DNA from: Thalassospira lucentensis
GTDB lineage: Bacteria > Pseudomonadota > Alphaproteobacteria > Rhodospirillales > Thalassospiraceae
NCBI RefSeq assembly: GCF_032921865.1
Contig: NZ_CP136684.1
Span: forward strand, 850,501 to 914,500
Reading direction: 5' to 3'
DNA length: 64,000 nt
In this document: positions 23,163-61,319 of the stretch, piece after piece
How positions within the stretch are numbered: the stretch's first letter is position 1
Layout of the letters: every line of letters begins with the position of its first letter
The notes under the pieces: model-generated
The model's input: only the letters and a program-made list of their open reading frames with translations
Told to the model about the DNA's origin: nothing
Databases searched by the model: none
Program-made: the position numbers and the translations under genes

Positions 23163-24644
23163 ATGAGCTGGCTTTTTCATCGCAAGACAAGACGATTGGC
23201 AACCGCCATTGGCGCACTTGGCCTGATTGCCGCCCTTGCGGGTTGCTCGACCAATCGTGCAACAGGCGAAGACAGCTTTACCGCCTTTATGTCCCCCGAG
23301 CAGGAAAAACAGGTCGGGGCCGAGGAACATCCGAAGATCGTCCGCGAGTTTGGCGGCGATTATGATGAAAAAGACCTGCAAAGCTATGTCACGGAAATCG
23401 GCAACAAGCTGGTGGCAGTATCCGAGGCACCGGATGAAAAATTCACCTTTACCGTGCTTGATTCACAGGTGATCAACGCCTTTGCACTGCCTGGCGGCTA
23501 TGTCTATATCACCCGTGGTCTGGCGGGACTTGCCTCGAACGAGGCGGAGCTTGCCGGGGTTCTGGCCCATGAAATCGGCCATGTGGTCGCCCGTCATTCC
23601 GCCCAGCGTTACAGCCGCGGTGTCCTGACGCAAATCCTTGCCGGGGGACTGTCGGCTGCCCTTGGCAGTGGCGCGGGCGATATCGTCGGTGCCGGGGCGA
23701 ATGCCTATCTGAAGTCGTTTTCGCGCGAACATGAATTTGAGGCCGACATGCTGGGCGTGCGTTACATCACGCGCGCCGGATATGACCCGGAAGGCATGGC
23801 ATCGTTCCTGAAAAAACTGCGTGCCCATTCGCGCCTGCAGGCGAAACTGGCCGGACGGTCACCCGACGAAATCGATCAGTTTGATTTCATGGCCACCCAC
23901 CCGCGGACCCTTGACCGGATCGAGCAGGCCCACAAAGCCGCCAACGTGACCCCGGTCGCCAATCCCGAAGTCGGCAGCGTGCGTTATATGCGGGCGATTG
24001 ACGGTATTATTTATGGTGATGGCCCGGATAACGGTTATGTGCGGGGCACTGCCTTTATCCATGTGCCGCTTGATTTCCGCTTTGACGTGCCCGACGGATT
24101 TTCAATGATCAACCAGCCCGATGCCGTCATCGCACAGGATGACGGCGGGGCGCAGATCGTGTTTGAAGGGGCGCCAAAGGCCAAGGGTGTCGGACTTGAT
24201 CAATATCTGGCACGTGGTTTTTCCAGCAAGATCGCGATCACCAATATCGAGAATATCGATATCAACGGTCAGGAAGCCGCCACCGGCTATGCCGACGTCA
24301 ATCTGAATTCCGGCGGGAAGGCACGCCTGCGTGTGGTCGTGATCCGGCACGGCGAAAACGCCTATCAGTTCCTGTTCATCACACCTCTTAATAAGGTCGA
24401 TGATTATAACGTGGCGTTACGCCGCACGACATACAGCTTCCGGCCGCTCACCCGCGAGGAACAGCAGAAATACCATCCGCTGCGGATCAAGGTGCGCGCG
24501 GTGAACCCGGAATATGACCTGTCGACCTTTGTCGGTCAGATGGCAGTATCACGCGAACCATCCGAAACCTTTGCCGTGCTGAACGGGCTTGAACCCGGCC
24601 AGCCACCGGCAACCAATTCGATGGTCAAAGTTGTGATTGATTAA
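23163..24644 (+). CDS. M48-family zinc metalloprotease lipoprotein
   Basis: A 493-residue envelope protease. The first 28 residues are a lipoprotein signal with lipobox LAGC (Cys-28), so it is probably anchored to the outer membrane on the periplasmic side. The M48 domain (~45-270) shows HEIGHVVARH (zinc ligands at ~136 and 140, catalytic Glu ~137) and the EFEAD motif with the third ligand. The rest (~280-490) is a beta-rich C-terminal extension in place of the TPR domain of E. coli BepA. It probably degrades or repairs misassembled outer-membrane proteins. The ATG is preceded by GAGGAAAGAC. It ends at a strong terminator. Confidence 0.9.
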   Translation: MSWLFHRKTRRLATAIGALGLIAALAGCSTNRATGEDSFTAFMSPEQEKQVGAEEHPKIVREFGGDYDEKDLQSYVTEIGNKLVAVSEAPDEKFTFTVLDSQVINAFALPGGYVYITRGLAGLASNEAELAGVLAHEIGHVVARHSAQRYSRGVLTQILAGGLSAALGSGAGDIVGAGANAYLKSFSREHEFEADMLGVRYITRAGYDPEGMASFLKKLRAHSRLQAKLAGRSPDEIDQFDFMATHPRTLDRIEQAHKAANVTPVANPEVGSVRYMRAIDGIIYGDGPDNGYVRGTAFIHVPLDFRFDVPDGFSMINQPDAVIAQDDGGAQIVFEGAPKAKGVGLDQYLARGFSSKIAITNIENIDINGQEAATGYADVNLNSGGKARLRVVVIRHGENAYQFLFITPLNKVDDYNVALRRTTYSFRPLTREEQQKYHPLRIKVRAVNPEYDLSTFVGQMAVSREPSETFAVLNGLEPGQPPATNSMVKVVID

Positions 24645-27040: not shown

Positions 27041-29533
27041 ATGCAGGGGTGTGGATTGGCGGAGGGTAGCCTGAAAACGCAACGGCTCAGATGGCGTGAT
27101 CGCTTGTCTGTCAAACAGGCACGTGCAGCCGTCATAATCACCCTTTTGATTGGTCTGTTTTTCAGTTTTGCCCAAATTGCCTGGGACCTGCATGAAGAAC
27201 GCAACCTGATCGACAGGACCGTTAATCAGGTTTTGTCGACTTTGCGCGAATCCGCGACACAGGCGGCCTATGGCCTTGATGAAACGCTTGCCGCGCGCGT
27301 TGTATCAGGCCTGTTTGAGTACGAACCGGTTTACAGCGCAACCCTTCGCGACAATTTCGGCAATGTGCTGGCGCAACAGTCACGCCCGCAATCGTCATCG
27401 GGCCGCTCAGCCCTGACCGAAATGATGTTTGGTAACAACCAGCAATATGATGTTCCCCTTGAAATCGGCGAGAGTCGCGATCTTGTCGGGCATCTTGTGG
27501 TGCGGATCGATACCGACCTCATTGCTGACGGTTTTATCAATCGTGCAACCCGTATCCTGACATCTGGCATTTTGCGCAACTTCCTGCTCGGCCTTGCGCT
27601 GGTTGCATTCTTCTATCTGACCCTGACCAAACCGCTTTTGCGCATATCCCAGGCCGTCATCGGCATCGACCGCGACAATCCCGATGCCACCGGCATCACG
27701 GTTGCCCGCCACCATGAACGCGATGAACTGGGTCTGTTGTCGCACTCGGTCCGATCACTGGTTGACGGTATTGCGACCTCGCTTGGCAAATTGCGCCAGA
27801 CCGAACAGCAGATGCGCGATAACGAATCCCGTCTTCGCGCCATCGTCCAGAACGTTGCCGACGGCATCCTGACGATCACACCGGGCGGCACCATTGTTGA
27901 AATCAACAACGCATCCTTCCCTTTGCTGGGGCTTTCCGAAGACGAAACACCAAAAGGCCGGTCCTTTCTTGAATTCGTCGCCCCGCGTGCGATCCCGCAT
28001 TTCGAAGAATGCCTGACCGAACTTGCCGGTTTCCAGACGCGCGACCATGTGGCCGAACAACGCCTGACATTGCCACTGGTGCGTCAGGACAAGACCGAAA
28101 TTGAAGTCAGCGCGGCCTTCCGCCCAATCCCCGAGGCGGAAACACCGCTGATCACGGCTGTTCTGCACGATATTACAGCGCGCAAGCGCTACGAGGAACA
28201 ACTGGTCTATATGGCCAACCACGATGCGCTGACGAACCTGCCCAATCGCAGCATGCTCGAATACAGTCTGAAAACGGCACTGGAAGGTCGCAAGCGCGAT
28301 GCACAGGGACCGCGCGACCGGGCCACTGCCATCCTGTTTATTGATCTGGACCGATTCAAGCTGATCAATGACAGCCTTGGTCACAATGTCGGAGACTTGC
28401 TGCTTAAAGCCGTTGCCGACCGGCTGCGCCGGGTTGTCAGCCGACAGGAGGTCGTTGGCCGCCTGGGCGGGGACGAATTTCTGATCATCATTCCGCGCCT
28501 GCGCGAAACACAGGACGCCGCAACACTTTCGCAGGCGGTTCTTGATGCCCTGTCCCCGGCCTTTGATATTCAGGGGCGGCAATTGTTCATTACGCCGTCC
28601 ATCGGGATCGCCCTTTGCCCTGCCGACGGGGATGATTTCCCGACCCTGATGCGCAATGCCGATACAGCAATGTATAGCGCAAAGGCCCGTGGTGGCGGGA
28701 CCTATCACTTCTTTACCAAGACGATGAATGAAAGCGCGGTTGCCCGTCTGGCAATCGAGAACGATCTGCGCGAAGCCCTGGCACAGGGTCAGTTCGAACT
28801 TTACTACCAGCCTAAAATAGATCTGGCTTCCGGCGGTCTTGCCGGACTGGAAGCCCTGATACGCTGGAACCAGCCGGGGCGCGGATTTATTTCCCCGATG
28901 CAATTCATCCCGGTTGCCGAAGAAACCGGCCTGATCGGCAAGATCGGGGAATGGGTGCTGCGCCGGGTCTGTGACCAAATCCGCGAATGGGATCTGCTCG
29001 GCCTGCCGCCTGTCAGCATTGCGGTTAACCTGTCGCCCCGCCAGTTGATCGAAGGCAGGATTACCGAAACGATATCGCGCATCCTTGACGAAACCGCGAC
29101 ACCGGCATCACGTATTGTCCTTGAAATCACCGAAACGGTGATGATGCATGAAATCAAACGATCCGCATCAATCCTTGATGAATTGCGTAAACTTGGCCTG
29201 CAGATCGCCATTGACGATTTCGGTACCGGATATTCCTCGCTGGCCTATCTGAAACGGCTGCCGATCAATTCGATCAAGATCGACCGGTCGTTTGTCCGCG
29301 ATGTGACGACCGATCCCGACGATGCCGCGATCACAAATACGATTATCATCATGGGTCATAATCTGGGCCTGAAAGTCGTGGCAGAAGGTGTCGAAACCCA
29401 GGAACAGCTTGATTTCCTGCGTCAACATGGCTGCGACGAAATCCAGGGCTTCCTGATTTCCGAACCGCGACCGGCAAATATCATCGCCAAACAGATCGAA
29501 CAGCTTTCGCGCAAGGTTGCGCCTACTCTATAA
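27041..29533 (+). CDS. Membrane-anchored PAS-GGDEF-EAL c-di-GMP enzyme
   Basis: An 830-residue sensor. Two membrane spans (~30-48 and ~177-196) flank a ~130-residue periplasmic domain; a HAMP-like stretch follows, then a coiled segment, PAS (~260-385), GGDEF (~390-560) and EAL (~575-820). GGDEF motif GGDEF (476-480) is intact, but the I-site RxxD is RQEV, so product feedback is lost. EAL (604-606) and DDFGTGYSS are intact, so both synthesis and breakdown of c-di-GMP are possible. The ATG at 27041 lacks a clear ribosome site; GGAGGG at 27060 hints at a slightly later non-ATG start. It heads an operon-like run with a receiver, CheC and histidine kinase. Confidence 0.9.
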   Translation: MQGCGLAEGSLKTQRLRWRDRLSVKQARAAVIITLLIGLFFSFAQIAWDLHEERNLIDRTVNQVLSTLRESATQAAYGLDETLAARVVSGLFEYEPVYSATLRDNFGNVLAQQSRPQSSSGRSALTEMMFGNNQQYDVPLEIGESRDLVGHLVVRIDTDLIADGFINRATRILTSGILRNFLLGLALVAFFYLTLTKPLLRISQAVIGIDRDNPDATGITVARHHERDELGLLSHSVRSLVDGIATSLGKLRQTEQQMRDNESRLRAIVQNVADGILTITPGGTIVEINNASFPLLGLSEDETPKGRSFLEFVAPRAIPHFEECLTELAGFQTRDHVAEQRLTLPLVRQDKTEIEVSAAFRPIPEAETPLITAVLHDITARKRYEEQLVYMANHDALTNLPNRSMLEYSLKTALEGRKRDAQGPRDRATAILFIDLDRFKLINDSLGHNVGDLLLKAVADRLRRVVSRQEVVGRLGGDEFLIIIPRLRETQDAATLSQAVLDALSPAFDIQGRQLFITPSIGIALCPADGDDFPTLMRNADTAMYSAKARGGGTYHFFTKTMNESAVARLAIENDLREALAQGQFELYYQPKIDLASGGLAGLEALIRWNQPGRGFISPMQFIPVAEETGLIGKIGEWVLRRVCDQIREWDLLGLPPVSIAVNLSPRQLIEGRITETISRILDETATPASRIVLEITETVMMHEIKRSASILDELRKLGLQIAIDDFGTGYSSLAYLKRLPINSIKIDRSFVRDVTTDPDDAAITNTIIIMGHNLGLKVVAEGVETQEQLDFLRQHGCDEIQGFLISEPRPANIIAKQIEQLSRKVAPTL

Positions 29534-29597
29534 TCGGACCTATCCTTGCGGGTGGCGCTGATACCACAAAAACACAAACCGAAGATCCGAGAAAAAC

Positions 29598-29972
29598 ATG
29601 TCCCAGAAGCGATCCGTCCTGCTTGTCGATGACAGCAAATTTGCCCGACTGCTGGTTAAGGCCTTTATCACCAGCAACTTTGCCGACTGGCGGGTGGATG
29701 AAGCCGAAGAAGCCGAAAAAGCGCAGGCAATGGCCGCCGAGCACGCCTATGATTACCTTGTGATCGACTTCAACATGCCGGGCATGAACGGGCTGGAATT
29801 GGGCGAAAAGCTTCGCGCGGCTTATCCCGATGCTGCAATTGCGCTTCTGACCGCCAATATACAGAAGGAAATCCAGAACAAGGCGGCGGGACTGGGCATG
29901 GATTTCATTGCCAAACCGCCGACCGAAGAAAAGATTTGCGATTATCTGAAAGGCAAGGAAGCCGGGCGATGA
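29598..29972 (+). CDS. Single-domain response regulator (CheY-like receiver)
   Basis: A 124-residue receiver with no output domain. The acidic pair D11-D12 (VLLVDDS), the phospho-acceptor Asp-57 in VIDFNMPGMNG, Thr-85 in LLTAN and Lys-106 in AKPP are all in place, so it is phosphorylatable. It must act by protein contact. The stop codon overlaps the start of the CheC-type gene (ATGA, 29969-29972), which implies coupled translation and that the CheC protein dephosphorylates this receiver. It follows the PAS-GGDEF-EAL gene by 64 bases. Confidence 0.94.
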   Translation: MSQKRSVLLVDDSKFARLLVKAFITSNFADWRVDEAEEAEKAQAMAAEHAYDYLVIDFNMPGMNGLELGEKLRAAYPDAAIALLTANIQKEIQNKAAGLGMDFIAKPPTEEKICDYLKGKEAGR

Positions 29973-30595
29973 TCGATCTGAGCGAGCTTGAACATGACAC
30001 GATCAGTGAACTGATCAATATCGGGGTCGGTCGCGCCGCCGCGTCACTTTCGGAAATGGTCGATCAGCCGGTCGAACTGACGGTCCCGACGATTACCTTT
30101 GTCGAACGGTTTTCCGATTCAAACCTGACATCATCGCCCGAAGAAGTGGTTTCCGCCGTCAGCCAGACATTCGATGGCCCGTTCAAGGGCGAGGCGATGC
30201 TGGTTTTCCCCGAAAAACGCAGCCTTGAACTGGTGCGACGGTTGCTTAAGGTTGATGTGCCTCTCGATACCCTGACCGATCTGGAACAGGAAGCCCTGAT
30301 GGAGGTCGGCAACATCATCCTGAATGCCTGTCTTGGCAGTATTGCCAACGTTCTGGGCGAGCCGATCAATTGTTCGATGCCGACCTTCCGCAAACGCGAA
30401 ACCAAGGCGCTTTTGAATGATGAGGCCGCGTATGATACCACCTCGGGCAAGATGCCGGTTCTGATGATCCTGCATGTGCAATTCATGCTGCGCCAGAATG
30501 ACATTGATGGTTATGTGCTGTTTGTCATGGATCTTGACTCGATCCAGACCCTGAAGGAACTCGTGCGGCGTTTCCTTGAAAACTCGCTCGGTTAA
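29969..30595 (+). CDS. CheC/CheX-family receiver phosphatase
   Basis: A 208-residue protein. It carries both copies of the CheC active-site motif, E-x2-N: ELINIGVGRAA (Glu-14, Asn-17) and MEVGNIILNAC (Glu-112, Asn-115), the arrangement of a two-site CheC phosphatase. CheC proteins hydrolyse the aspartyl phosphate of receiver domains, usually CheY. Here no chemotaxis genes are near; the receiver gene overlaps upstream and a histidine kinase follows 14 bases after. The start at 29969 is chosen for the ATGA overlap rather than the ATG at 29936 inside the receiver gene. Confidence 0.9.
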   Translation: MIDLSELEHDTISELINIGVGRAAASLSEMVDQPVELTVPTITFVERFSDSNLTSSPEEVVSAVSQTFDGPFKGEAMLVFPEKRSLELVRRLLKVDVPLDTLTDLEQEALMEVGNIILNACLGSIANVLGEPINCSMPTFRKRETKALLNDEAAYDTTSGKMPVLMILHVQFMLRQNDIDGYVLFVMDLDSIQTLKELVRRFLENSLG

Positions 30596-30609
30596 CGGGC
30601 AGCAGCGCG

Positions 30610-32211
30610 ATGACAAAACCCACCTCCCCGATTGTCGATATCAAGGATGCCGCAGAAGCCGCCGACCTTTACGGCAATCTGCTTGATACAGCCGATGTCG
30701 GCCTTGTGGTGATCGGGGCAGACCGGGCCATCTGCCACTGGAACCAGTGGATGCAAAGCCGGTCGGGGATTTTGCACGAACAGGCAATCGGTAAACGGTT
30801 AAGCGCCCTGTTCCCCGAAACCCGCTTGGGGCGTCTGTGCCAGGCCATACAGGATTGCCTGGAATTCGGCATGCCTGCTGTGATTTCGCCGTCCCTTAAT
30901 CAGGGGGCCCTGCCGCTTCGTCCGCTGCCGCAATTTGCCGCGACATTTGAACGCATGGAACAATCCATCCGTGTTCATCCAATCACGACATCGCGCGGGG
31001 ACAAGCTGTGTTCACTGACTGTACGTGACGTCACACTTGCCGTGCAGCGCGACCGGCTTTTACGACAGCAGGCTGCCGAATTGGCCGAACTGGTGACCCA
31101 GACCCGACGCAGTGAAGACCGTACACGTGCGATTTTGCAAAACACCATCGATGCCATTCTGGTCGCATCCGATGACGGCAATATCGAACCGCTTAATGCC
31201 CGTGCTCAGGAACTCTGCGGTCCCGAAGGCGACCCGGAACTGAGCAACATCATCCGGTTTTTGCTCCCTGACAGCAAACATACCCCACCGCAACGCCCGA
31301 CTGCGGACCGTCTGTTGACCGATCTTGGCACAGGCGTGATCGAGGTTCTGGCCTGCACCAAAAACGGCCGCAACGTACCGCTTGAAGTCGCAATCAGCCA
31401 CTTTTCGGCTGACGGGCGTTATCATTACATCATCACCCTGCGAGACATTTCCCAGCGCAAACGCCATGAAATGGAAATCCAGCGCACCATGGCGGAACTG
31501 GAACGATCCAACAGCGAGCTTGAACAGTTCGCCTATGCCGCGTCCCACGATTTGCAGGAACCGCTTCGCATGGTGTCGAGCTATACGCAGTTGATCGCAC
31601 GGCGATACAAGGACAAGCTTGACGAAACCGCCGATGAATTCATTCATTATGCGGTCGATGGCACCCAGCGCATGCAGCGCATGATCGATGATCTTCTCAC
31701 CCTGTCGCGGGTCGGGCGGCATGGCAAACCGTTCCATGCAGTGCCACTTGACAGCCTGTTTGACGCGATTGCCGCCAATTTCCGGCGGGCGGGACTGGGT
31801 CCGGCGGGCAACATTGTTCGCGATGGCTTTCTACCAACCGTGACCGGTGATGCCAGCCAGCTTTTGCTGCTGTTCCAGAACCTTGTTTCGAACGGCCTTA
31901 AATACAGTGACCCCGACAAGGGCGAAGTCCGGATTTATGCCGGGGAAACCGATGAAAGCTGGAAGGTTTTTGTTGCCGATAACGGTATCGGCATCGAACC
32001 GCAATATCACGCGACAATCTTTGAAATCTTCAAACGTCTGCACGGTTACGGGGAATACGCCGGGACCGGCATCGGGCTTGCGATCTGCAAAAAAATCGCT
32101 GACCGGCATGGCGGGACGATCACGGTTGAAAGCGAACCGGGAAAAGGCAGCACGTTCTGCGTTGAATTGCCAAAAGAATTGCCGATTGTGATCGCACAAG
32201 AAAGCATGTAG
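30610..32211 (+). CDS. PAS-domain sensor histidine kinase (soluble)
   Basis: A 533-residue protein without membrane spans. A first PAS-like domain lies at ~15-145 and a second at ~165-290, then a HisKA dimerisation helix with YAASHDLQEPLRM (phospho-His-313) and an ATPase domain with the N box QNLVSNGLKYSD, the G1 box ADNGIGIEP and the G2 block GTGIGLAICKKI. It lacks a receiver or output domain, so the neighbouring single receiver is its likely partner. Being cytoplasmic it should sense an internal signal through PAS. It is the last gene of the run; its stop is six bases before an operator-like palindrome. Confidence 0.93.
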   Translation: MTKPTSPIVDIKDAAEAADLYGNLLDTADVGLVVIGADRAICHWNQWMQSRSGILHEQAIGKRLSALFPETRLGRLCQAIQDCLEFGMPAVISPSLNQGALPLRPLPQFAATFERMEQSIRVHPITTSRGDKLCSLTVRDVTLAVQRDRLLRQQAAELAELVTQTRRSEDRTRAILQNTIDAILVASDDGNIEPLNARAQELCGPEGDPELSNIIRFLLPDSKHTPPQRPTADRLLTDLGTGVIEVLACTKNGRNVPLEVAISHFSADGRYHYIITLRDISQRKRHEMEIQRTMAELERSNSELEQFAYAASHDLQEPLRMVSSYTQLIARRYKDKLDETADEFIHYAVDGTQRMQRMIDDLLTLSRVGRHGKPFHAVPLDSLFDAIAANFRRAGLGPAGNIVRDGFLPTVTGDASQLLLLFQNLVSNGLKYSDPDKGEVRIYAGETDESWKVFVADNGIGIEPQYHATIFEIFKRLHGYGEYAGTGIGLAICKKIADRHGGTITVESEPGKGSTFCVELPKELPIVIAQESM

Positions 32212-32248: not shown

Positions 32249-32629
32249 ATGAACGACAGCTATTCCATCACCGACCTTGCCCGCGAGTTCGACGTCACGA
32301 CGCGTACCATCCGCTTTTACGAGGACCAGGAACTGATCGCGCCCGCGCGTCAGGGGCAGACCCGCATCTATAGCCAGCGTGACCGCGTGCGCCTGCGTCT
32401 GATCATGCGCGGCAAACGGCTTGGCTTTTCGCTTAAGGAAATTCGCGATCTGCTGGACCTGTATGATACGGACCGCAGCGAAATCATGCAGCTGACCATC
32501 CTTGTCGATAAGATCAATGAGCGCCGCGATACCCTGCGCAAACAGCGTCAGGATATCGACGCGACACTTGATGAACTCGATAAGCTCGAAGAAACCTGTC
32601 AGGAAGAACTGACCCGTAAATCGGGCTAA
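32249..32629 (+). CDS. MerR-family transcriptional regulator
   Basis: A 126-residue regulator. The N-terminal winged helix is SITDLAREFDVTTRTIRFYEDQ, followed by LRLIMRGKRLGFSLKEIRDLL and a dimerisation coiled coil (~75-125). There are no metal-binding Cys, so it is not a mercury- or copper-type sensor; this cysteine-poor form resembles LiuR-like regulators of branched-chain and fatty acid breakdown. No such genes adjoin it here. The palindrome at 32217-32234 is its presumed operator. Confidence 0.9.
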   Translation: MNDSYSITDLAREFDVTTRTIRFYEDQELIAPARQGQTRIYSQRDRVRLRLIMRGKRLGFSLKEIRDLLDLYDTDRSEIMQLTILVDKINERRDTLRKQRQDIDATLDELDKLEETCQEELTRKSG

Positions 32630-58754: not shown

Positions 58755-61319
58755 ATGACGCGCCCCAGTTTTTCGGATGGCAAGCCTCCCCACCTGACAG
58801 TAGGTACGATTTCCCCCGGCATTGTGTTGCGCTGCGGGCCGGAAACCGCCATTGGTCAGGCCATCGACATGATGCGCGAAGCCAATTGCAGCTCCATCAT
58901 TGTCACCAGGGATCATCTGCCGGTCGGAATCTGGACGGAAAAGGATTGCCTGTCCCTGCCGGCCGACTGCGAAGCCACCCTGAACGAGCCGATATCAAAA
59001 TGGATGTCGGCCCCGGTCCACAGCATTTCCGTCCACGCCACGCCCGAGGCCGCGATCATCCGCATGCGCGAACGCCATGTCCGCCATCTGGTCACCGTGG
59101 ACGAGGAAAACCGCCTTGCCGGCATCATCAGCCAGTCGGATCTGATCCGTCAGCAGGGAAGCTGGCGCAAGCTTGGCGATGGTGATGTCGGTGCCGCCAT
59201 CCGCCGCACGACAATCTTTGTCGATGGCGATATTGCGATGTCGGAACTGCGCGCCCGCATGCATGACGCCAAATGCGACTGCGCGATTGTTTATGATCCG
59301 TCGGTTGCGACCGACCCGGTCGCCATGCTTGATCACACCGGGATCATCACCGAACGCGATATCCTGCGCAATCTGGCCAATGGCGATCACGCAATCCCCG
59401 CCATCAAGGTCGCCAGCCGTCCACTGCGCGTTATTTCCGCCAGGGCCAGCCTGAACAATGCCCGCGACACGATGCTGGCCGAACATATCCGCCATCTTGC
59501 CGTCATTGATGAAGCCGGCAACGTGATCGGCGTTCTGTCATTTGCCGATCTGCTGGAATTCATCGAACAGGACTACTTCGCCCATCTCCGGTCCGTGATG
59601 GAAGGCCGCGATGTCGAACTGAGTGCAGCCCGCCGGTCGCTGTTTCTCGCCGACAAGATCATTGAAACCTCGCCCGACGGGATCATGGTCTGTGCCGCCG
59701 ACGGCACGATCGAACTGGTCAATCCTGCCTTCACGCGCGTGACCGGCTACACCGCCAGCGATGTGATCGGCAAGAACCCGAATATCCTGCAATCCGGTCG
59801 CCAGTCCCGCGAATTTTATACCGCGATGTGGCGCGATATTGCGCGACAGGGCAAATGGGAAGGCGAAATCTGGAACCGTCGCAAATCCGGCGAAATTTAT
59901 CCCGAATGGCTGTCAATCATCGCAATCCGCGATGCCGATGGCCAGATCAGCCAGTATGCGTCGATCTTCACCGATATCAGCGAACGCAAGAAAAACCGCG
60001 AGGATATCCTGCGGCTTGCCCATATTGATGAACTGACCGGCTATCCCAATCGCCGCCGCTTCCTTGAGCTGCTGGCACATGGCATCGGTGAGTCCCGGCG
60101 CAAGGGAACGCGCCTGACGATCCTGCTGCTTGATATCGATAATTTCCAGCGGGTGAACAACACATTGGGCCACGGTGACGGCGACGATGTTCTGGTCGAA
60201 GTTGCGCGTCGCCTGCATCGCCGTCTGGATCAGGGCGGGGTTCTGGCACGTGTCGGTGCGGATGAATATGCCATCCTGCTGTCAGGCGGCCAATCTGCCG
60301 ACGATGATGCCGCACTGGCCGACGATCTTCTAAAGGCGTTAAGCCAGCCGCACCGCACCAGCAAGGGGCAGGAAATCTATCTTTCGGCCAGCATCGGCAT
60401 TGCATCATTCCCCCACGATGCCAACGATACCGCCAATCTTTTGCGCAATGCCGAAATTGCCATGATGCAGTCCAAGGAACAGGGGCGAAACCGCTTCAGC
60501 CGCTATAACCGCGCCAGCCATTCACGCAGCGATACCGACCTTGCCCTTGAAACCGCATTGCGTCGCGCCCTGGACCGGGATGAATTTCATCTGGTCTATC
60601 AACCGCAATTCGAAGCCCGTACCGGCAACCTGCACGGGGTCGAAGCCCTGTTGCGCTGGAACCATCCGGAACGCGGCCCGATCCCGCCAACCGTGTTCAT
60701 TCCCGTGGCCGAGGAAATCGGCGTCATCGGGGAACTGGGCCGCTGGGTACTGCGCCATGCCTGCCGACAGGCCGTTTCATGGCGCGAAAAGGGCCTGCAC
60801 AACATCACCATGGCGGTGAATGTCTCGGTTCAGCAATTCTATGGCACGGTTGATCTCGCCGACCAGATCAGAACAATCCTGGTCGAAAAGGGCATGGCTG
60901 CCGACCGGCTGGAAATCGAAATCACCGAAAGCCTGTTCATGCAGAACATTGATGAAATGCGCGCCAACATGCAGCGCATTCGCGATCTCGGCGTCAAAAT
61001 CGCCCTGGATGATTTCGGTACCGGCTTTTCCAGTCTCAGCTACCTGCGCAAACTGCCCTTTGACACGATCAAGATGGATCGCAGCTTTGTAAGCGACATC
61101 AATCAGGGGCGTGAAGGCAGCACGCTTGCGATCACCATCCTCAATATGGCGCAGAACCTGCGCAAAAAATGTGTCGCCGAAGGTGTCGAAACCAACGCCC
61201 AGCTCACGCTTCTGCGCGATGCCGGCTGTGACTACATTCAAGGCTACCTCATGGGAAAACCGATGAGTGCCGATGACATTTTCGACCTGTCACAGCAAAG
61301 ATCGGCCGAAGCTTCCTGA
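58755..61319 (+). CDS. CBS-PAS-GGDEF-EAL protein with degenerate GGDEF motif
   Basis: An 854-residue soluble protein. Four CBS-like repeats fill residues ~17-275, a PAS domain ~295-410, GGDEF ~415-585, EAL ~595-845. The GGDEF motif reads GADEY (501-505), with no I-site RxxD; cyclase activity is doubtful though GTP may still be bound as an allosteric ligand. EAL (630-632), ITE and DDFGTGFSS are intact, so it is probably a c-di-GMP phosphodiesterase gated by adenine nucleotides (CBS) and a PAS signal. The start at 58755 is chosen over 58680 on ribosome-site grounds (AGG 8 bases before). It is monocistronic, after acnA's terminator. Confidence 0.9.
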   Translation: MTRPSFSDGKPPHLTVGTISPGIVLRCGPETAIGQAIDMMREANCSSIIVTRDHLPVGIWTEKDCLSLPADCEATLNEPISKWMSAPVHSISVHATPEAAIIRMRERHVRHLVTVDEENRLAGIISQSDLIRQQGSWRKLGDGDVGAAIRRTTIFVDGDIAMSELRARMHDAKCDCAIVYDPSVATDPVAMLDHTGIITERDILRNLANGDHAIPAIKVASRPLRVISARASLNNARDTMLAEHIRHLAVIDEAGNVIGVLSFADLLEFIEQDYFAHLRSVMEGRDVELSAARRSLFLADKIIETSPDGIMVCAADGTIELVNPAFTRVTGYTASDVIGKNPNILQSGRQSREFYTAMWRDIARQGKWEGEIWNRRKSGEIYPEWLSIIAIRDADGQISQYASIFTDISERKKNREDILRLAHIDELTGYPNRRRFLELLAHGIGESRRKGTRLTILLLDIDNFQRVNNTLGHGDGDDVLVEVARRLHRRLDQGGVLARVGADEYAILLSGGQSADDDAALADDLLKALSQPHRTSKGQEIYLSASIGIASFPHDANDTANLLRNAEIAMMQSKEQGRNRFSRYNRASHSRSDTDLALETALRRALDRDEFHLVYQPQFEARTGNLHGVEALLRWNHPERGPIPPTVFIPVAEEIGVIGELGRWVLRHACRQAVSWREKGLHNITMAVNVSVQQFYGTVDLADQIRTILVEKGMAADRLEIEITESLFMQNIDEMRANMQRIRDLGVKIALDDFGTGFSSLSYLRKLPFDTIKMDRSFVSDINQGREGSTLAITILNMAQNLRKKCVAEGVETNAQLTLLRDAGCDYIQGYLMGKPMSADDIFDLSQQRSAEAS

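Follow-up and report, generated by a model that had tools for sequence, protein, structure and literature searches.

A recurrent receiver, CheC and PAS gene module in Thalassospira lucentensis and other Pseudomonadota, with a proposed role in motility and cyclic di-GMP signalling

What does a CheC-type phosphatase act on when it is encoded outside a chemotaxis operon, between a lone receiver and a histidine kinase and close to a cyclic di-GMP (c-di-GMP) enzyme? This question is raised by a 64,000-nucleotide (nt) stretch of the Thalassospira lucentensis genome (contig NZ_CP136684.1, positions 850,501 to 914,500; hereafter the window). The original prediction for this DNA described a run of a c-di-GMP enzyme, a lone receiver (REC), CheC and a PAS kinase, and all four genes (PAS-GGDEF-EAL, REC, CheC and PAS-PAS-histidine kinase) are indeed present, intact and on the + strand at window positions 27041-32211, with the predicted overlap of the receiver and CheC genes amounting to 4 nt. 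The term phosphorelay that was applied to them is incorrect, since neither an Hpt domain nor a hybrid receiver was found in the Pfam scan; the run instead encodes a HisKA-type two-component pair (a kinase with HisKA and HATPase domains and a receiver with an acceptor aspartate and a conserved lysine) plus a phosphatase. We propose, at slightly better than even chances, that REC, CheC and a particular PAS subtype, here called PAS-star, make up a conserved signalling unit in which the kinase would phosphorylate REC, CheC would reset it and phosphorylated REC (REC-P)/CheC would act through PAS-star on motility and c-di-GMP. The window contains each element of this REC-CheC-PAS-star module: a receiver with a distinctive signature, CheC, and PAS-star in the next gene.

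The receiver (29598-29972, + strand, 124 aa) consists of a receiver domain only (E-value: 7e-21), with acceptor D57 and K106. The CheC start codon lies on its stop codon in the sequence ATGA (29969-29972, + strand), and translational coupling of the two genes is likely. CheC (29969-30595, + strand, 208 aa) is read here from the in-frame ATG at 29969 because aligned relatives begin at or near this position, while its longest open reading frame (ORF) starts from a TTG at 29936. Alignment identifies two active sites, D10-x3-E14-x2-N17 (29996-30019, + strand) and E108-x3-E112-x2-N115 (30290-30313, + strand), and each E-x2-N site is accompanied by a proline 23 residues on (P40 and P138). D10, E14, N17, P40, E112, N115 and P138 are unchanged in 23/23 aligned CheC sequences. 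The position four before E112, which is D or S in the CheC consensus, is a glutamate (E108) here. The CheC profile matches Thermotoga maritima CheC (1xkr) with an E-value of 3.5e-23, and an AlphaFold2 model (predicted local distance difference test score, pLDDT, 79.7) superimposes on the same structure with a template modelling (TM) score of 0.84 and a root-mean-square deviation (rmsd) of 2.6. By sequence and modelled fold, this is thus a genuine CheC. It has both the common fold and the two E-x2-N sites of the CheC-type phosphatases (T. maritima CheC, 1xkr, and CheC-CheD, 2f9z; FliY, 4hyn; CheX), and as a member of this group of CheY-P phosphatases it is predicted to dephosphorylate the receiver. 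In a wider set of 83 CheC domains, E14 and N17 are each retained in 81, while in 20 REC-CheC fusions D replaces E112 in 19 and S replaces N115 in 6. Loci L080, L081, L133, L147, L150, L152 and L160 have a pair of CheC genes, arranged either in tandem or with one copy behind the kinase.

CheC-linked receivers are marked by a short motif at the conserved threonine/serine. In the window this signature reads T85-A-N-I-Q89 (29850-29864, + strand). The general form, [TS][AG][ND]xQ, occurs in 47/47 CheC-adjacent and 20/20 CheC-fused receivers (67/67 together) and in 0/96 other receiver domains of the same loci; these counts leave out Thalassospira loci L032-L053, and the pattern was chosen and once widened on the same data, its earlier form [TS]AN.Q having matched 39/47 adjacent and 0/20 fused receivers. 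In loci fetched later, the signature was found in 11/11 fused receivers and 0/8 others, a retest that is only partly independent because these loci are mostly fusions like the earlier ones. At Azospirillum loci L060 and L063, the receiver sits behind the kinase and is of a different type.

The third element is encoded at the start of the kinase gene (30610-32211, + strand, 533 aa; two PAS domains, HisKA and HATPase in Pfam, in the order PAS-star, PAS, HisKA, HATPase). PAS-star corresponds to kinase residues 21-165 (30670-31104, + strand). When the first 165 residues of the kinase were used as a phmmer query, they matched the N-termini of kinases, hybrid kinases, GGDEF proteins and GGDEF-EAL proteins encoded beside REC-CheC. 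After two rounds, the resulting profile matched all detected downstream partners with four exceptions, and it matched in 49 of the 55 genera described below. The third gene usually begins with PAS-star, followed by a kinase, a GGDEF domain, a GGDEF-EAL pair or nothing. The only Pfam match in the first half of the window domain is a generic PAS; in some relatives this match is longer. The PAS-star model (pLDDT 87.7) has a PAS fold and its best match is 3mxq, a deposited structure of the PAS from a V. cholerae (Vibrio cholerae) sensory box histidine kinase (Z score 13.7; 104 residues aligned with an rmsd of 2.2 and 28% identity), which the PAS-star profile matches as well (E-value: 8.1e-29). As many PAS structures score close behind 3mxq, fold alone tells little, and it is the sequence profile that sets PAS-star apart. 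Generic PAS noise was rejected as the source of the matches: among 56 unlinked histidine kinase and GGDEF proteins, 23 of which are Thalassospira GGDEF-EAL proteins so that the independent control is nearer 32, there was one weak match (L062_7268, E-value: 3e-6) and one strong match, the latter being the L057 partner gene in a run-on ORF. The genome of the window has a single PAS-star match at E 1e-10, with 10 of 31 first-look candidates scored.

The partner attached to PAS-star changes between lineages. A search of 385 Alphaproteobacteria with the window CheC found 14 genomes, and a CheC profile search of 398 Pseudomonadota matched 105. From these we compared loci of 55 genera (45 of the 50 genera matched in the profile search, 5 having no listed position, and 10 from the alphaproteobacterial search). 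In 49/55 genera, the receiver gene sits beside CheC or is fused to it. A kinase is the next gene in 30/55, the window being scored here since its GGDEF-EAL gene lies beyond REC; a c-di-GMP gene is adjacent in 21/55, with a kinase-type locus present as well in two of these genera; and in 6/55 neither was found. In one of these six (L162) a standalone PAS-star protein follows, and in another (L138) a 231-aa PAS-star ORF follows that overlaps a kinase ORF, perhaps by a frameshift. REC-CheC fusions, which we infer to be those of Gammaproteobacteria, are directly followed by a GGDEF gene in 14 of 20 cases. Six Magnetospirillum-type loci (L054-L059, four of them Pfam-checked) have the order REC, CheC, PAS-GGDEF-EAL, and residues 23-292 of the window kinase share 32% identity (E-value: 9e-39) with the GGDEF-EAL protein of L058 (its residues 12-276), in an alignment that runs through both PAS domains and the linker. 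Judged from this alignment, the same sensor is joined in Magnetospirillum to GGDEF-EAL, in the gene position where Thalassospira has a kinase. When 83 CheC domains are placed on a maximum-likelihood tree, the type of partner (kinase versus c-di-GMP) changes at least five times; this tree was built with a quick method, has Shimodaira-Hasegawa-like approximate likelihood ratio (SH-aLRT) support only and several long branches, omits L091 (104 aa), reduces Thalassospira to 4 rows and does not count loci scored as both or other. These changes lead us to reject a single lineage-specific accident as the origin of the c-di-GMP link. Contig L054, filed under a Stygiobacter metagenome-assembled genome, is closest on this tree to L058 and is probably mis-binned. 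CheC relatives were also identified in 31 plasmid records, 16 of them from Azospirillum (L060-L063 are among the plasmid-borne loci); PLSDB predicts 7 of the 31 to be conjugative and 3 mobilizable, so the module may travel.

CheC and PAS-star also occur together at the level of whole genomes. Among the 398 genomes, CheC was found in 105 and PAS-star (E 1e-10) in 118, with both in 101, CheC only in 4 and PAS-star only in 17, phylogeny being ignored in this comparison. For 110 of the 150 CheC matches listed, PAS-star is encoded on the same strand no more than 700 nt downstream; a further 11 are the first members of tandem CheC pairs, for which PAS-star is reached within 1600 nt. The proportion is higher in the first 115 listed matches (109 with PAS-star nearby) than in the 35 of the second batch, which are mostly second copies. 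In the reverse direction, 41 listed PAS-star matches have no listed CheC nearby, and of 20 of these that were fetched, 12 proved to have REC-CheC or CheC directly upstream and one lies at a contig end. The association is strong, but not absolute. Hybrid PAS-star kinases without CheC at L212, L213, L214 and L223 are found directly behind a lipoprotein-like ORF with a HEIGH motif, which looks like an M48 peptidase; a window ORF about 5 kb before REC (23163-24644) resembles these ORFs, probably by coincidence.

Given these frequencies, the surprise expressed in the original prediction was misplaced, although its observation was right and its interpretation is partly supported; PAS-star and the receiver signature were not visible to it. 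It had called both the action of CheC on a receiver outside a chemotaxis (che) operon and the combination with a c-di-GMP enzyme unusual; the 105 CheC-positive genomes, the 49 genera with an adjacent or fused receiver and the 21 with an adjoining c-di-GMP gene indicate otherwise. Its statement that chemotaxis genes are absent is accurate for the neighbourhood, where the eight scanned neighbours belong to families other than CheA, CheB and CheW, but does not extend to relatives, as CheA or CheB is encoded within the flanking sequence read around the CheC locus in 19/55 genera. The module is also associated with flagella. FliM, read by eye from match lists in the CheC genomes, is present in 100/105 genomes with CheC and 170/293 others; the five CheC genomes lacking it are 71-80% complete, and in genomes at least 90% complete the counts are 86/86 and 145/252, respectively.

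The FliM counts, together with the nearby CheA or CheB genes, are what would be expected if the locus were a side branch of chemotaxis, with the receiver an extra CheY on the flagellar motor, phosphorylated by this kinase (and perhaps by CheA) and cleared by CheC, and with the c-di-GMP gene a mere operon neighbour. The receiver profile is compatible with this explanation in that its second-best structural match is T. maritima CheY (E-value: 5.7e-24), after the receiver-GGDEF structure 3luf (E-value: 1.9e-24), and the che2 operon of Azospirillum brasilense counts a CheC, whose function is unknown according to PMC8561660. A pure motor role, however, does not predict an adjacent c-di-GMP gene in 21 of 55 genera. 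Furthermore, this genome has its single CheA-type (H-kinase_dim) match elsewhere, at 2.51 Mb of contig C2 (the window being C2 0.85-0.91 Mb), and its CheZ-family matches fall at three sites, of which the one at C2 2.563 Mb is close to a single-domain receiver. We therefore consider the side branch rather unlikely. The co-occurrence with FliM and the separate CheA-type locus place the module outside the che operon here, yet in flagellated cells. Two other CheZ-family matches are only some 5 kb apart (G000:C2:951357-956575), one spanning a stop codon.

A second alternative makes PAS-star an input: it would control CheC, alone or in cis, much like CheD in Bacillus, and the receiver level would be the sole output. 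The CheD partner that a Bacillus-type CheC-CheD adaptation system would have was not matched in this genome at E 0.001. Standalone PAS-star proteins of 145-162 aa are encoded directly behind REC-CheC fusions at L142, L151, L162, L172 and L175, and similarly at L207, L217 and L225, where PAS-star must have a role in trans. As gating of CheC leaves the frequent fusion of PAS-star to GGDEF or kinase domains unexplained, we think it improbable.

In Thalassospira itself, the run opens with a membrane PAS-GGDEF-EAL protein (27041-29533, + strand, 830 aa; EAL E-value: 4.7e-80, GGDEF E-value: 2.6e-44 in Pfam), which has two hydrophobic segments, one beginning near residues 22-32 and the other near 172-182. 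Its GGDEF motif (28466-28480, + strand, residue 476) and EAL motif (28850-28858, + strand, residue 604) are intact, DDFGTGY is found at residue 725 and an RxxD inhibitory site was looked for before GGDEF and is absent; the protein is predicted to be an active enzyme. A gap of 64 nt (29533-29598) separates its gene from REC, and one of 14 nt separates CheC from the kinase. A MerR-family regulator (32249-32629, + strand) follows 37 nt after the kinase and is retained there in 23/23 Thalassospira loci. The entire order GGDEF-EAL, REC, CheC, histidine kinase, MerR on one strand is shared by the window and all 23 Thalassospira loci fetched (L031-L053, one filed only as "Rhodospirillales bacterium"), so the survey of relatives suggested at the outset finds the run kept, and the arrangement is not due to chance. 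CheC was detected in 29/29 genomes of the family sample, all of genus Thalassospira, and the T. xianhensis CheC matches that of the window at 100% identity. Among the loci read, Thalassospira is the sole lineage with a kinase behind REC and a c-di-GMP gene ahead of it. REC-CheC fusions L151 and L164 have a Cache-type GGDEF or GGDEF-EAL gene directly upstream, comparable to the Thalassospira membrane-type gene. On each side, at a distance of about 30 kb, there is another GGDEF gene (window ~60018-60494, + strand, and G000:C2:849765-850253), although the whole 4.7-Mb genome has only 30 GGDEF matches. That the locus is merely a standard two-component system to which a spare phosphatase has been added, beside a GGDEF-EAL gene that came there by chance and became fixed in a single genus, is very doubtful: the 64-nt gap and the restriction of the upstream gene to Thalassospira (24/24 loci including the window, among those compared for gene order) fit this view, but no + strand terminator-like site was found in that gap (the whole scan gave 10 such sites), REC-CheC is repeatedly beside c-di-GMP genes elsewhere, and partner type has changed at least five times. 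The region also gave no sigma-70-like site when scanned.

Returning to the conserved signalling unit, its operation might be as follows. The kinase is probably soluble, as no hydrophobic segment was found when it was scanned, and would sense an internal cue and phosphorylate the receiver at D57. CheC, to judge from its conserved residues and fold, would strip the phosphoryl group by means of its two E-x2-N sites and so set the duration of the signal. Lacking an output domain, the receiver must exert its effect through binding; and because PAS-star usually accompanies REC-CheC whatever its fusion, we propose that REC-P or REC-P/CheC docks on PAS-star and would then steer whatever PAS-star is attached to, PAS-star being the reader of REC, CheC or both in a setting of flagellar motility. 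In Thalassospira, docking would act as feedback on the kinase, and the upstream GGDEF-EAL protein would be a likely second output in this genus only. In the Magnetospirillum-type relatives and the REC-CheC fusion lineages, docking could directly control c-di-GMP synthesis or breakdown.

The Thalassospira kinase has a further peculiarity. Its H-box reads HDLQEP, with glutamate four residues after the histidine (H+4), where T or N is usual, and HDLQE is found in the window and in 23/23 Thalassospira loci. The genome has 32 HisKA domains, and in the 30 that were read H+4 is T in 12, N in 8, Q in 5, S in 2 and E in 1 (the window kinase alone), with no H-box histidine in 2. According to a study of CrdS (PMC3510030), the H+4 residue (N, or T in part) is required for phosphatase activity, which A, Q and D abolish; N375A retains kinase activity, while N375D has none measurable. 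CheC may therefore be the main phosphatase in Thalassospira. Among the linked kinases judged, the H+4 change holds for Thalassospira (E) and L082 (Q); 17/60 linked kinases did not match the H-box pattern and were left unjudged. The idea that partner kinases in general lack the phosphatase motif and hence need CheC is ruled out by the many that have HEIRT. If the kinase is active, Glu at H+4 with CheC as the reset device may be a local refinement in Thalassospira.

Several points weigh against the proposed unit. The data show the gene order, the intact motifs, the folds, the co-occurrence, the receiver signature and the domain swap; the biochemistry, the docking and the output are all inferred. 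PAS-star is absent from the REC-CheC-kinase loci L061, L062, L081 and L126, all alphaproteobacterial; among the 150 CheC matches listed, 29 lack a listed PAS-star nearby, and 23 of these 29 belong to the second batch, being mostly further copies in a genome; and 7 of the 20 fetched PAS-star loci have no CheC, so PAS-star exists apart from it. The co-occurrence and FliM contrasts do not correct for phylogeny, and the partner changes depend on the quickly built tree. In Thalassospira, the PAS of the GGDEF-EAL protein, when scored with the PAS-star profile, is not PAS-star, so that the docking proposal leaves this protein unexplained, and its position upstream of REC is peculiar to the genus among the loci compared for gene order. 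Since CrdS N375D is inactive as a kinase, Glu at H+4 could impair the window kinase too, and the retention of HEIRT by many CheC-linked kinases means that the H+4 change is not general.

Comparison with known systems helps to delimit the module. It differs from the known CheC-type phosphatases in that the window CheC has no CheD match in its genome, lies outside a che operon and is tied to a signature receiver and PAS-star. Some CheC classes have reportedly been proposed to work outside chemotaxis, in a 2008 review by Muff and Ordal. A similar arrangement is that of A. brasilense che2 (CheC, CheA2, Cle2 and Cle3): a CheC relative 41.5% identical to that of the window, which we take to be the che2 CheC, is followed by a PAS-star-bearing kinase, with a CheA gene close by. 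This locus differs in having no signature receiver before CheC and in being clustered with CheA. PleD/WspR-type regulators, in which a receiver is fused to GGDEF, are alike in tying receiver phosphorylation to c-di-GMP; here, in contrast, the receiver is separate or fused to CheC, and it is PAS-star that is carried by the GGDEF protein. A search of open-licence papers found none on REC-CheC-PAS or on CheC beside GGDEF, which is weak evidence of absence. Similarly, "CheC" appears nowhere in the main text of surveys of c-di-GMP genes in Azospirillum (PMC5845226) and in alphaproteobacterial orders (PMC9756655). CheC outside chemotaxis operons is common; the combination of the REC signature, CheC and PAS-star with an interchangeable output looks new.

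More broadly, we suggest, tentatively and at less than even chances, that REC-CheC-PAS-star is a separate, widespread cassette of flagellated Pseudomonadota in which a dedicated PAS docking adaptor reads the phosphorylated receiver, either alone or together with CheC. If so, evolution could join the same switch to a kinase, to a diguanylate cyclase or to a phosphodiesterase, or could employ PAS-star in trans, and a PAS domain acting as the reader of a receiver/phosphatase pair, matched to the receiver signature, would represent a new form of two-component wiring. Should PAS-star be the reader, one phospho-switch could be connected to different outputs again and again with the switch itself unaltered. 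The module offers an explanation for proteobacterial CheC genes outside chemotaxis operons, supplies a signature by which their receivers can be recognized, and provides a testable link between a two-component switch and c-di-GMP in flagellated bacteria.

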